A stretch of DNA of 64,000 bases from Pelomonas sp. Root1237 (GTDB taxonomy: Bacteria; Pseudomonadota; Gammaproteobacteria; Burkholderiales; Burkholderiaceae_C). Made by a program: the position numbers and the translations under genes. A model generated the notes under the pieces. It saw only the letters and a list, made by a program, of their open reading frames with translations, had not been told where the DNA came from and ran no database searches. The DNA is taken from the NCBI RefSeq assembly GCF_001425055.1, contig NZ_LMDK01000016.1, positions 409,803 through 473,802 of the forward strand, in the 5' to 3' direction. How positions within the stretch are numbered: position 1 is the stretch's first letter; each line of letters begins with the position of its first letter. This document shows positions 15,157-21,100 of this stretch, piece after piece.

Positions 15157-15984
15157 TCAGCCCCGCAGGCGCCGGCGCGCCACGCCACCCATGACGGCCA
15201 GGCCGGCCAGCATCAACGCGTAGCTCTCGGGTTCGGGCACGGCCGTGACGGCCAGCACGTCGGCGACGATGGGCGTCGAGTTGGACCCGGCGACGGTCGT
15301 CCAGTTGGCGTTCACGGCCAGGGCTGACTTCAGTTGCGCCATCGAGCTGAAAGGCGCGTCGTTGGTCGTGACCTGCGCCGTGAACTGCGTGTAGCGCGTC
15401 GCCGTCGCGGCGTCGACCTTGTACTCGCGCAGTTGGATGCCGGAAAGGCCGGTCGCGGCAGTGGGATTGTCGGACGAGGTGTAGGTGCCGCGGTTGGAAA
15501 GTGCGCCCAGGAAGGTGATGGCCGAGGCCTGGTAGTTCGTCGCATAGGACGCGGCCTGGAAGGCGTAGAGGATGTCGCCGCCGCTGGAGATGTTGGACGC
15601 GCCGCCGTTCAGGTTGACGACCACGCCGTTGGCAGTGCCGCCGGCCGTGCCGGACTTGGCCGCGTACTGGCCGTTGACGCCCGTGCCCAGCAGCGCCACC
15701 GACGTACCTGCATTCACCTTGGCGCTGGCCGTCCAGGACCAGAAGGTCTCTGCCGTCGTCGAGAACACACCGGCGGCCGACGTCGTCTGCAGCACGTTGG
15801 TGTCGGTGAAGTAGATCGTCGTGCCCGCGGCGATGTCGACGAAGCTGACGAAGGACCAGCCGCCGACCGTCGTGTTGCCATTCACGCCGGTGAAGGCGAA
15901 TTGGGTGTTGCTCAGCGAGGTGCCGGCAGCCTGGACGGTGCCGATGGAAGCGGCCAGGGCGATCAGGGTCAGGGACTTGTTCAT
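15157..15984 (-). CDS. PEP-CTERM exported protein
   Basis: 275 residues. A signal peptide (MNKSLTLIALAASIGTVQAA) is followed by a Thr/Ser/Gly-rich beta domain with motifs such as GWSFVSFVDIAAGTTIYFTD, and a C-terminal VPEPESYALML helix ending in RRRLRG, the PEP-CTERM sorting tag. It is the third gene of an apparent operon with the pectate lyase and another PEP-CTERM gene, 32 bp from its upstream neighbour. Its stop codon directly abuts the stop of the broken binding-protein gene on the other strand. Function unknown; probably a secreted or surface-matrix protein. Confidence 0.83.
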   Translation of the reverse strand: MNKSLTLIALAASIGTVQAAGTSLSNTQFAFTGVNGNTTVGGWSFVSFVDIAAGTTIYFTDTNVLQTTSAAGVFSTTAETFWSWTASAKVNAGTSVALLGTGVNGQYAAKSGTAGGTANGVVVNLNGGASNISSGGDILYAFQAASYATNYQASAITFLGALSNRGTYTSSDNPTAATGLSGIQLREYKVDAATATRYTQFTAQVTTNDAPFSSMAQLKSALAVNANWTTVAGSNSTPIVADVLAVTAVPEPESYALMLAGLAVMGGVARRRLRG

Positions 15985-16774: not shown

Positions 16775-19417
16775 TCAGCGGCCGCCGCCGACGATGCTGA
16801 CGTTGTCGAAATCGGCCGTGACGACCGCGCTGTTGCTGCCCGATGAGAGGGCCAGGCCGACGTAGAGGCTGGCGGCCGTCACGTTGACGTTGGTCTTCTC
16901 GGCCCAGGTCACGCCGTCGGTGGACGCGGCGGAATACAGCGCATTGCCGCGCCGCTGCACGCGCACCCAGACGGGCGGCGTGGACGCTGCAAAGCCAGCC
17001 AGGTTGGACTTGTTGTTGCCGTTGATGGCGGCGCGGATCTCGCCGGTCGTCGAGTAGCGCGCCGTCCAGGCGTAGACCGGGCTGCCCGTGATGCCATCCG
17101 CCGCGACGACACCGGCACGCGCCGAGTCGGCATTGCCGCCCTGCGTCACGACGCGGGCCGTGAAGGTGAAGTCCCCTGTCAGCGCCGTGTACTTGAAGTT
17201 GAAGGTGTAGGGGCTGCCGGTGTTGATGGCACCAGCGCCGGACAGCGTGTAGGTGCCGGTGGCCTGCACATAGGCGGCAGCGGGCACGATGGCGGTGACC
17301 AGCGGGCTCATGGCCTGCTCGCCGCTGCCCGTGCTGCAAGGCAGGGTCACGGTGCAGGCCGTGCCTGGAATCAAGGGCGGCGGATTGGGCGACGGACTGG
17401 GCGCGGGTGTCGGGGCTGGCGCCGGCGTGGGCGATGGGCTGGGTGCGGGGCTTGGCGTCGGGCTGGGCGTCGGGGATGGGCTGGGCGCCGGCGAACCGGG
17501 CAGCGGCGCGGGCACGGGGCCCTGTGCGGCGAACAGGCCCACGCGACCGGCACCGGCCGCCGCCTGCACGGCACCGCGCGCGGCGTCGGCCGTGCGCAGC
17601 GTGTAGGCATACGGCGGCACCCAGTTTTGCGCCACCGGCACGCCCTCGCAGCCCTGCAGCTCGATGTCGACAACGGCGGTCATCGGCTTGCCCAGGTCGT
17701 CCTTGTCGCTGATGAAGCGATGACCGCTGCTGCGCATCGAGATCGCGTCCTTGCCGCCGGCCAGCTTGCCGCAGACCTCCTTGGGCTTGAGGCCGGTGAA
17801 TTCGTAGAAGTTGTTCTCGTTGATGACGTCGGACTGGTAGCGCGCGTCCAGGCCCGAGCCGAACTTCATGTCGTTGTCGCTCGTCGTCGTGCTGCCGGTG
17901 ACGAGGTTGTTGTACATGTGCAGCTGGCCGAAGCGCACCAGCGGCAGGCGGCTGTAGGCGTAGTTCCACCAGTTGCCGGTCAGCGTCACGTGCAGGCGGC
18001 CGGCGTCGCTCCAGGCGCGGCCGGAGTCGCCGTTGCCGATCAGGCTGTTCTTGTGGTGCTTGCTGAAGACGCTGTTGGAGACGGTCACGTAGTCGCTGCC
18101 ACGCACCACGTCCAGCGCGCCGTCGTGGCGCGTGTCGCTGGCCAGCGAATCGGGCGTGTCGCCATCGCTGATGGTCACGTGGTCGAGCCAGATCTGCTGG
18201 CCGCGCGTGACAGTCAGGCCGTCCATGTAGGCGTTGTCGCTGTCCTCGGGGTTGACGTCCCAGGGCGTGTCGATGGCCAGGTTGCGCAGGATGATGTTGC
18301 GCGTCCAGGTCGGGTAGGCCTCCGGGTCCTTGCCCGCCGCGACCCAGGTCTTGAAATCGGCCTCGGGGTCGCCGCCGGGCGCCAGTGCGGCCTCGATGCC
18401 GATCAGCAGTTGCGTGCCGGTGATGCGCGCCGGGCGGCCGTTGCTGTCGTTGATACCGACCAACGTCGTGTTGGACGGGATGGAGAAGGAGCCGCCGTTC
18501 TTCTGGTCCAGGAAGCCCGTGTATTCCTCGAACACCGTGTTGCCATCGCGCCAGCGGAAATCGATGTGGCCGACGATGCGGATGATCTTGGGCTCGTTCT
18601 TCGCCTCGCGCAGAGCCGCCAGCAGCTGCTCCTTGTTGAACACCGTATAGACGCGGTTCGCCGCGGCCGAAGAGCCGCCGGTGACCAGCACCCTGCCCTT
18701 GCGCGACCGGTTGTGCCAGCCGGTGTCGGGTGCCGTCTCGCGCTCGAAGGTCAGCTGGCCGCCGGTCGGGTCGACGGTGGCGAACTGCCAGGCCGGCAGC
18801 TTGGGCGCCGCGCGATAGTTGCTCGGGTTGTGCAGGCCGCTGATGGTGACCGGCGCCGCGTAGCTGCGCGTGCCGACGTCGAAGAGCAGCGGCGCGGTCG
18901 TGTCGGTCAGGTTGACGGCGTCGATGACCGGCGCGGGCGGCGGCGGTACCGGGCGCGGGTCACGCACCGCCAGGGCCTTGGCGGTTGCCGTCTCAGTGCT
19001 GGCTGCCGGTGCATCAAGGCGGCTAGCCGAGGCCTGCTCGCTCGACTGCGGCGAGGCGATGCTCGCGGGGTTCTCCTGGCCTCCCCCGCAGGCCAACAGG
19101 CCAAGCGAGATGGACGAGGCCAGCAGGCCCAGCTTGGGCCGAGTCCACCGAATCAGGGGACTAGTGCCCCCCGCCGAGTCGAGAAAGGGGGCTGGGGTAG
19201 GCGCGGCTTGCAGCTCAGGCTGGGAGCCTGGGCTAGAGTCGCAACACCCCCCTGCCCCCTTTCCCGGCTCGGCCCGAAGGGTGAGCGGCAAAACGGCCGC
19301 ACTCGTCGTTGAAACTGCTCGCCAGGTGTCCAACCTGGCTCCGCGTTTCGCCTCGATTGCGGCCGTTTTGCCGCTCACGGGGGGCACTAGCCCCCTGATT
19401 CGGTGGACTGGGGTCAT
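16775..19417 (-). CDS. Pectate lyase (PL1) lipoprotein with interrupted leader
   Basis: 880 codons as read. The catalytic PL1 beta-helix spans roughly residues 190-590: IWLDHVTIS, DGALDVVRGSDYVTVS, FSKHHKNSLIG, and SRLPLVRFG carrying the likely catalytic Arg. A Pro/Ser/Thr linker of PSPTPSP-type repeats leads to a C-terminal beta-sandwich of ~190 residues that may bind carbohydrate. A lipobox (LGLLACGGG) lies ~110 residues in because a 268-bp inverted-repeat element occupies codons ~3-92. Without it the protein would begin M-T-R-P-K-L-G-L-L-A, a normal lipoprotein signal. ATG 19417 has GGAG 7 nt upstream. Export of the present form is doubtful. Confidence 0.82.
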   Translation of the reverse strand: MTPVHRIRGLVPPVSGKTAAIEAKRGARLDTWRAVSTTSAAVLPLTLRAEPGKGAGGCCDSSPGSQPELQAAPTPAPFLDSAGGTSPLIRWTRPKLGLLASSISLGLLACGGGQENPASIASPQSSEQASASRLDAPAASTETATAKALAVRDPRPVPPPPAPVIDAVNLTDTTAPLLFDVGTRSYAAPVTISGLHNPSNYRAAPKLPAWQFATVDPTGGQLTFERETAPDTGWHNRSRKGRVLVTGGSSAAANRVYTVFNKEQLLAALREAKNEPKIIRIVGHIDFRWRDGNTVFEEYTGFLDQKNGGSFSIPSNTTLVGINDSNGRPARITGTQLLIGIEAALAPGGDPEADFKTWVAAGKDPEAYPTWTRNIILRNLAIDTPWDVNPEDSDNAYMDGLTVTRGQQIWLDHVTISDGDTPDSLASDTRHDGALDVVRGSDYVTVSNSVFSKHHKNSLIGNGDSGRAWSDAGRLHVTLTGNWWNYAYSRLPLVRFGQLHMYNNLVTGSTTTSDNDMKFGSGLDARYQSDVINENNFYEFTGLKPKEVCGKLAGGKDAISMRSSGHRFISDKDDLGKPMTAVVDIELQGCEGVPVAQNWVPPYAYTLRTADAARGAVQAAAGAGRVGLFAAQGPVPAPLPGSPAPSPSPTPSPTPSPAPSPSPTPAPAPTPAPSPSPNPPPLIPGTACTVTLPCSTGSGEQAMSPLVTAIVPAAAYVQATGTYTLSGAGAINTGSPYTFNFKYTALTGDFTFTARVVTQGGNADSARAGVVAADGITGSPVYAWTARYSTTGEIRAAINGNNKSNLAGFAASTPPVWVRVQRRGNALYSAASTDGVTWAEKTNVNVTAASLYVGLALSSGSNSAVVTADFDNVSIVGGGR
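19142..19409. repeat. 268-bp nested inverted-repeat element (MITE/REP-like) in the pectate lyase leader
   Basis: Outer arms of 31 bp (19142-19172 and 19379-19409) match at 30 of 31 positions when inverted. Inside are two further hairpins. One has arms near 19173-19197 and 19248-19273, with a smaller hairpin at about 19212-19233. The other is a perfect 21-bp inverted repeat at 19281-19301 and 19358-19378. There is no coding capacity for a transposase. The element sits directly after the start codon of the lyase and keeps its reading frame open. Confidence 0.8.
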
Positions 19418-19875
19418 GGCATGTCTCCTGGCGCGCTCGTACAGCGCGCGCTTTGTCTTTGTTGGGCATGCCGCCCCCTGGGCTCGAGCGTTCGCAAGGA
19501 AGCAGGCGCAGGCCCGCCTGGCACCGACCCGTCAGGGGTCAGGCGCGCAGCGCTTCAGCAATGGCAGGGGACGGGGGATCGGCGGCAGGCCGAGATGGCG
19601 CTTCGGCCCTCGCGGCACCGGCTCGCTTGGGCGTCAAACAGGGGAGCGGGCACAGCAGGCGCCTCGCACTGCGTCGGCTGACGAAACCCCGGCCACCCGG
19701 CGGTATCCGGTCAGCGGTTTCGGCTCAGCGAGCAGTTGGAACAGTGTTTCGTTTTTGGGATTGACGGTCAACGCCGGGCAATCCCTGAGGGCATTTGTTC
19801 AGGGGGCGAGGCGAACCCGCAGGCAGCGTTGTCGGCCGCTCGCACGATGAACGCCTCACCGTCATGACGGCCGAG
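19418..19875. other. Non-coding stretch upstream of the pectate lyase operon
   Basis: About 460 bp without a convincing gene. It presumably holds the promoter of the minus-strand lyase/PEP-CTERM operon and the 3' flank of the S4 gene. An imperfect inverted repeat is visible near 19673-19730 (CGAAACC and GGTTTCG arms flanked by GCTGA). I looked for a cyclic-di-GMP riboswitch and a -24/-12 promoter and found neither. Confidence 0.4.
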
Positions 19876-20304: not shown

Positions 20305-20362
20305 AACGGAGGTTGTCTGGCGGTTTTTTCCGCATCTTCAGCAACCCTCAAGGGAGTTCTCG

Positions 20363-21100
20363 ATGACCAAGTTCCTTACCTCCGTGGCACTTGCCGCAGG
20401 CCTGATGGCCGCTGGCAGCGCCAACGCCTACCTCGTCTTCACCGGCGTCGACAACAACGGCAATGCCAGCGCACAAGTCGCTCCCACGAATTCGAGCGCT
20501 GCTGAAACCAGCTTCAAGAGCAACCTCGTCGGCGTTGGCACGGAAAACTTCGAAACCCGTGCTGGCGGCGCGCCGCTGGCCCTGGACTTCGGCGCTGCCG
20601 GCACCGCCACGCTGAACGGCGCTGGCTCTGTCGCCACCAACACCGCCGGCAACACCAACGGCGCTGGCCGCTACTCTGTCCCCGGTGGCACCCGCTACTG
20701 GGAAGTGTCTGCCGGCGGCGGCAGCCCCTTCCAAGTCGACTTCACCAATTCCCTGGCAGCCTTCGGCTTCTACGGCATTGACCTGGGCGACTTCGGCGGC
20801 ACCCTGACGCTGGAACTCTCCAAGGGCGGCGTCGTGGTCGGCTCGCAAGTCGTCACCACCGCAGCGCAGAACGTCGCTGACGGCAGCGTCCTGTACTTCG
20901 GCCTGATCGCCTCCAACGCCTCTGAAGAATTCGACCGGATTCGCTTCCTGTCGACCGTCGGCTCCGGCGACATCTTCGCCTTCGACAGCTTCACGATCGG
21001 CACCAAGGAACAAGTGCGTCAGCTGCCCGAGCCGGCCAGCCTGGCACTCGTCGCCGGTTCGCTGCTGGGCCTGGGCCTGGTGCGCCGTCGCCGCGCCTGA
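20363..21100 (+). CDS. PEP-CTERM exported protein under a sigma-54 promoter
   Basis: 245 residues. Signal peptide MTKFLTSVALAAGLMAAGSANA, a Gly/Thr-rich body with FETRAGGAPLALDFGAAGTA and FGFYGIDLGDFGGTLTLEL (lectin-like beta fold), and a LPEPASLAL tail ending RRRRA. AGGGAG lies 7 nt before the ATG; the longer ORF from 20261 starts upstream of the promoter and is not real. It stands alone, with a sigma-54 promoter in front and a strong terminator behind. The codon choice (for example GCT and GAA) seems a little different from its neighbours, which may mean high expression. Function unknown. Confidence 0.85.
   Translation: MTKFLTSVALAAGLMAAGSANAYLVFTGVDNNGNASAQVAPTNSSAAETSFKSNLVGVGTENFETRAGGAPLALDFGAAGTATLNGAGSVATNTAGNTNGAGRYSVPGGTRYWEVSAGGGSPFQVDFTNSLAAFGFYGIDLGDFGGTLTLELSKGGVVVGSQVVTTAAQNVADGSVLYFGLIASNASEEFDRIRFLSTVGSGDIFAFDSFTIGTKEQVRQLPEPASLALVAGSLLGLGLVRRRRA

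Follow-up and report, generated by a model that had tools for sequence, protein, structure and literature searches.

Between the start codon and the lipoprotein signal of a pectate lyase gene of Pelomonas sp. Root1237 lies a long nested palindrome through which the reading frame stays open, raising the question of what this element is and what it does to the gene. We analysed it within a 64,000-nucleotide stretch of the genome, hereafter the window, to which all window coordinates refer.

The element inside the lyase gene

The lyase is encoded on the minus strand by an 880-aa ORF (16775–19417) that reads through the element and matches PF00544 (Pectate_lyase_4); a search of this ORF against NCBIfam gave no match. 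Read on the lyase strand from 19417, the ATG (19415–19417), which lies outside the element, is followed by five bases, by 268 bp of palindromic sequence down to 19142 and then, in frame, by the lipoprotein signal core RPKLGLLASSISLGLLAC (19088–19141). The element (19142–19409) thus occupies the space between start codon and lipobox and consists of 31-bp termini and two hairpin arms. The 5' half of its terminal stem, AGTCCACCGAATCAGGGGGCTAGTGCCCCCC (19379–19409), found in the Root1237 genome only at this insertion, pairs with the 3' half (19142–19172) with one mismatch. Enclosed by the stem are arm A with its conserved tip (19281–19378), a 9-nt linker read from the sequence as CCCTTCGGG (CCCGAAGGG on the plus strand; 19273–19281) and arm B (19174–19272), a hairpin inverted relative to arm A. 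The arm model R1 introduced below matches arm B on the plus strand with 76.6 bits and arm A with 98.1 bits, the latter score being that of an arm whose Root1217 counterpart was used to build R1. With terminal and two inner inverted repeats recovered, the coordinates, strand and nesting given in the preliminary description of this 268-bp element hold, as does its observation that the original Shine-Dalgarno sequence is kept: besides the ATG, a Shine-Dalgarno-like AGGAG is present at 19425–19429 (minus strand, read from the sequence).

The same description called the element three-way foldable. Folded as minus-strand RNA, it closes into a multi-branched structure with a predicted energy of −211.5 kcal/mol (z = −17.4), a stability equalled by 0 of 200 shuffled sequences. 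In the predicted fold of the lyase mRNA, the folded piece opens with 16 unpaired nt that include the AUG, and the stem begins at +9. Rfam returned 12 matches for window positions 18900–19800, all below the gathering score; the microRNA-like ones among them scored far below it and were rejected as generic hairpin matches.

To see how the element relates to the reading frame, we compared the gene with its orthologues L012, L013, L020 and L022. In these, the Lys codon of the K-P-K/R motif begins 12 nt after the A of the ATG, and the corresponding window codon, CGG, begins 276 nt after it. The net insertion is therefore 264 nt or 88 codons, by which distance the lipoprotein signal core is also removed from the start relative to the four orthologues. 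It had been proposed that taking out the element leaves an ordinary M-T-R-P-K-L-G start; since 268 is not a multiple of three, removal alone gives no such clean start, and the difference between 264 net nucleotides and a 268-bp unit means that the frame can have been kept only if another small change occurred or the ancestor differed in length. Loss of the 268 bp (266 plus a 2-bp duplication) would put CGG 8 nt after the A of the ATG and out of frame, which makes the suggested switch by precise excision unlikely.

The lyase is still under purifying selection. Against the other carrier of the element, L011, dN/dS of the mature protein is 0.213, a value inside the range of the other 13 computed pairs (0.171–0.426), so that the gene does not look abandoned. 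With 88 added codons ahead of the lipoprotein signal and a very stable predicted mRNA structure from +9, we would expect the element to lower translation and to impair or change lipoprotein processing and export, and as the gene is conserved, some function probably remains. The lyase is flanked by two proteins with a C-terminal VPEP/LPEP-type motif, which we take to be the PEP-CTERM sorting motif (15157–15984, minus strand; 20348–21100, plus strand).

A family of two-arm elements and their ends

BLAST found relatives of the window element at six other places in the Root1237 genome, five of them through arm A alone; arm B alone retrieved only itself at E below 0.3. All six are nested palindromes as well, with different stems. 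From an alignment of 21 arms (A1) we built the arm model R1, which gave at least 84 arm matches in this genome at E ≤ 0.1, a lower bound because 150 of 14605 candidates were scored. The loci taken cover 79 of these 84 matches, the five weakest being omitted. Altogether 103 R1 matches fell into 47 loci; 83 arms were used (the 79 plus four second arms), and the 20 dropped rows comprised 18 instances of the same arms on the opposite strand and two weak ones. Of the 47 loci, 11 carry a single arm and 36 carry two (plus, then minus), following one plan: terminal stem, arm, linker of about 9 nt running CCC..GGG, inverted arm, terminal stem. The outer CCC and GGG of the linker are invariant across 30 aligned elements.

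Including the terminal stem, the two-arm elements measure 263–270 bp in 30 of 36 rows; the other six, the window copy among them, read 273–288 bp where pairing was followed into the flank. Likewise, the stem is 29–34 bp long in 30 of 36 rows, and the 39 bp read for the window copy include chance pairing of the flank. The dispersed copies bear out the idea of a multi-copy family, and together with the 31-bp inverted termini enclosing only arms and linker, without a transposase, they agree with the earlier view of a non-autonomous, foldable, MITE-like element. The proposed route to this result failed: GTCCACCGAATCAGGGG, searched with up to two mismatches, occurs in the Root1237 genome only as the window pair, so that the interior arms recur and the termini do not. 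Nor did the termini serve elsewhere in the genus, where 19 other genomes yielded the Root1217 pair and eight two-mismatch matches in five genomes (reversed control, three), with a single weak arm match (E 0.047) as the most that the loci of these eight offered. We consequently rejected the window termini as a family mark, there being no second copy in their own genome. The gene context of the 36 copies, judged by GC periodicity, was ambiguous. A separate sequence of about 100 bp shared by four contig ends of this genome (starts of C17, C21 and C19, end of C16; L214, L215, L216 and L220) suggests another multi-copy element.

An end sequence of the family led us to a resident IS at the end of contig C1 (L208), whose ends, TAGGGCCTGTTAACACTA, share the same 16-bp start. 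By coordinates it measures 823 bp from GGG end to CCC end, with an N beside it in the scaffold. The IS is also seen at L206 and L207; contigs C1, C12 and C16 break in copies of it, C12 and C16 at their starts. Its transposase lies in two frames that match PF13340 and PF01609 as well as NF033580 (IS5 family), the latter with 100.7 and 133.1 bits, the second above and the first below the cut-off of 110 set for the whole protein. The frames are split around a run of A, a possible programmed frameshift. Among the 36 two-arm copies, 29 match GGGCCTGTT at seven or more of nine positions, compared with 1.8% of shuffled ends. The window copy does not share these resident ends: with three of nine positions it is the lowest of all 36, followed by L150 with four.

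TA dinucleotides are strongly enriched next to the copies. In the Root1237 genome, where both ends are recognisable in 29 of the 36 copies, TA adjoins both ends in two of these, one end in 17 and neither in 10, amounting to 21 of 58 flanks versus a background of 1%. Seven copies were fetched from the genome G010: five (L189–L192 and L194) carry TA on both sides, L193 on one and L195 on none. Over 263 positions, the five with TA on both sides show at most two differences from one another, with three of them the same throughout. The window copy has no TA flank, CA and TC adjoining its GTCC..GGAC ends. It is atypical, as its ends recur nowhere in its own genome and TA flanks are lacking.

One way to account for this would be a nested insertion, in which an element of about 224 bp, GTGCCCCCCG...CGGGGGGCAC, flanked by TA at the inner CTAG, entered an earlier 18-bp palindrome, AGTCCACCGAATCAGGGG-GCTAG-TCCCCTGATTCGGTGGACT. 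The missing TA at the outer ends would then be explained, and the resulting junctions, C-TA/GTG...CAC/TA-G, also border four of the five recent copies in G010, where the remaining one has T-TA..TA-G. Nonetheless we consider such an event unlikely, because the 31-bp stem is in keeping with the stem lengths of the other two-arm elements, a CTAG would by our estimate fall into a 31-bp stem by chance in about one case in ten, and the outer palindrome by itself is present in no orthologue with a visible N-terminus.

In other genera, arms are found between other ends, namely CTAGTGTCCTGAGTC, CTAGTGTAGTGCTTC and CTAGAAACC, for none of which a transposase was found. Among the matches listed, one 1.4-kb pair in G175, examined as a candidate autonomous element with CTAGTGTCCTGAGTC ends, was discarded as two short repeats around a KpsF-like gene and no transposon. 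At L221 (G175, C106), a palindrome of the GTCATTCCCGCG type takes the place of an arm between CTAGTGTCCTGAGTC ends, and from this locus ends and interiors look modular. A mini-element with little beyond its ends was seen in G010 (C16:12262–12335), where two CTAGGGCCTGTTAAC ends face each other 74 bp apart.

Carriers, covariation and distribution

Whether relatives have an empty site was assessed at 12 orthologous lyase loci. Ten (L012, L013 and L015–L022) are without the element, one (L011, Pelomonas sp. Root1217) carries it, and L014 could not be judged as its N-terminus is missing. Most relatives are thus empty where the preliminary description had asked for a comparison. A second empty locus was seen for the element of L136, whose site in G008 (C5) matches on both flanks and lacks the element; the alignment ends 4 bp before and restarts 15 bp after it (81% and 72% identity), so this is no base-exact empty site. 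Between the two lyase carriers, 264 of 268 positions of the element, 471 of 482 upstream and 114 of 142 directly after it are identical. A profile against 40 kb of the near relative G002 showed long BLAST segments of 88–95% identity and mosaic bins; positions 19251–19750, in element and 5' UTR, are 99.2–99.6% identical between the carriers, and the lyase bins range from 0.70 to 0.93. High identity next to a diverged lyase makes both local recombination and constraint possible, and either may lie behind the sharing of the window copy. Over window positions 1–27644, identity to G002 varies from 0.70 to 0.996 in 250-bp bins, a mosaic that suggests recombination between lineages.

These data bear on whether the element, beyond mere insertion, has been domesticated to control the lyase in cis, as a regulatory RNA or a switchable leader. 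The frame is open in both carriers, the lyase is conserved, the element and the 5' UTR are about 99% identical in surroundings of 88–95%, and a very stable predicted mRNA structure adjoins the start codon. The roughly 90 open codons stressed in the preliminary description do exist, but are not notable: at least one of six frames is open in 30 of the 36 two-arm elements, and 55 of all 216 frames (25%) are open anyway. As the known carriers are two strains only and taking out 268 bp leaves the gene out of frame, we regard a domesticated leader as improbable.

What has been preserved in the family is its pairing. In the 21 arms of A1, 28 of 33 arm pairs show compensatory change, and in 30 whole elements, chosen for variety from among the copies, 74 of 83 predicted pairs show double change. 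The 30 elements contain 697 doubly changed cells versus 214 ± 12 in shuffles, counts that related rows inflate; their paired cells amount to 90.4% compared with 36–44% for slid structures, the structure being derived from the same alignment and hence somewhat favoured, and covariation reaches 0.686 against 0.183 when shuffled. In some rows the model misplaces pairs by one or two bases. Stem sequences have diverged widely, with a median between-locus identity of 0.35 over the initial 20 nt of each arm and 0.53 in the tip flank, and the outer stem sorts the 83 arms into 16 groups.

A further observation concerns mismatches. Read in arm direction, the arm stems contain 78 G-T versus 29 A-C combinations (raw count; of the 83 arms, 81 were included and two with poor pairing left aside). 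With one count per cluster and position, and under a filter that differed slightly, the ratio is 36:18 (P = 0.02). On the genomic strand the asymmetry is gone (53:56). Since the excess appears only in arm direction, an orientation that was set by the model and could bias the count slightly, it gives a hint of a role for the single-stranded fold of each arm. The strong compensatory evolution and the G-T over A-C asymmetry would also suit a family of structured functional RNA genes instead of a mobile element, but this is very unlikely in view of the inversion of the two arms, the IS5-family-like ends, the TA flanks, the identical dispersed copies in G010, the contig-end copies of G135 and G090, and Rfam, in which 12 related loci gave 0 matches at gathering score and the window hits were sub-threshold.

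Relatives of the arms extend well beyond Root1237. R1 found matches in 45 of 150 genomes of the order at E ≤ 1e-4 (strict filter; no more than 27 candidates scored in any genome) and in 23 of 299 genomes of the phylum at E ≤ 1e-6, the Root1237 genome included in both counts. Judging from the lyase orthologues, which belong to Pelomonas and Roseateles, these are the order Burkholderiales and the phylum Pseudomonadota. Nine loci from the phylum search were inspected (L243–L251); five of them (L243, L244, L245, L247 and L249) have two arms and a CCC..GGG linker, and the remaining four are degraded, single or off-centre. The near relative G002 holds 15 arm matches at E ≤ 0.001, compared with the 84 of the Root1237 genome, a difference that speaks for mobility. 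On plasmids, the window element itself found no match and L055 one short partial match, and other copies retrieved relatives from Variovorax, Azotobacter, Halomonas and Pseudomonas aeruginosa. These overlie no listed feature in gene tables that are incomplete and, for two records, almost empty; the P. aeruginosa copy falls into the gap separating two annotated genes. Phages gave no match, and the tip pattern was not found in viral contigs.

Interpretation and comparison with known systems

The window element is, very probably, one copy of a structured, non-autonomous foldback MITE family with dozens of copies in its own genome. Our assignment draws on direct observation of architecture, copy number, compensatory variation, empty loci, TA flanks, identical dispersed relative copies and resident IS ends. 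A typical copy of about 268 bp has a terminal stem of about 30 bp, an arm of about 98 nt, the CCC..GGG linker of about 9 nt, an inverted arm of about 98 nt and the return of the stem. The family was most likely moved by IS5-type transposases, an IS5-family transposase acting in trans. The arms may be kept because something recognises their single-strand fold or because that fold protects the element, and pairing them in inverted orientation would give each strand a forward arm. In the lyase gene, a copy with foreign or diverged ends would have inserted directly after the start codon and become common to two related strains. Its ends could be those of another IS or the product of divergence, or reflect nested insertion at the inner CTAG.

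More tentatively, the elements could represent parasitic DNA that occurs across the phylum and forms a class by its shape and not its sequence. Two homologous arms in inverted orientation would make up a cloverleaf core that swaps termini between transposase lineages, and the arms, folded as single strands, would be read by a shared host factor. The end types seen so far are GGGCCTGTT, GGAGGCTGTCGG, TGTCCTGAGTC, TGTAGTGCTTC and AAACCGCGGTTG, with a transposase found for GGGCCTGTT only. If this picture is right, one structural plan has been kept across distant proteobacteria while the stems drifted, for which reason sequence searches show mostly fragments. It makes testable the role of a fold in a MITE, the matching of changing palindromic arms and the combination of one core with different ends, and the window copy offers a natural case of a foldable element between start codon and lipoprotein signal. 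The structured MITE family is without an Rfam match, and parts of it may already be described, for instance among Pseudomonas repeats.

Several known systems come close. The Rickettsia palindromic elements found in ORFs likewise place a palindrome in frame within a protein gene. They occur in other taxa, and the in-frame location seen here concerns one insertion only. REP and REPIN sequences, marked by a RAYT transposase and a GTAG-footed REP, share the hairpins in inverted pairs and the dispersed copies, whereas the elements described here measure about 268 bp and mostly have IS5-family-like ends. The MITEs of the IS5 family are also short, lack a transposase and combine inverted termini and dispersed copies with an enrichment of TA flanks; most copies in the Root1237 genome likewise have ends like those of the resident IS. 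They differ in that the window copy's own ends depart from the resident IS ends and, for the family, in the interior, where two homologous arms in inverted orientation form a conserved cloverleaf and the stems keep pairing while their sequences vary.
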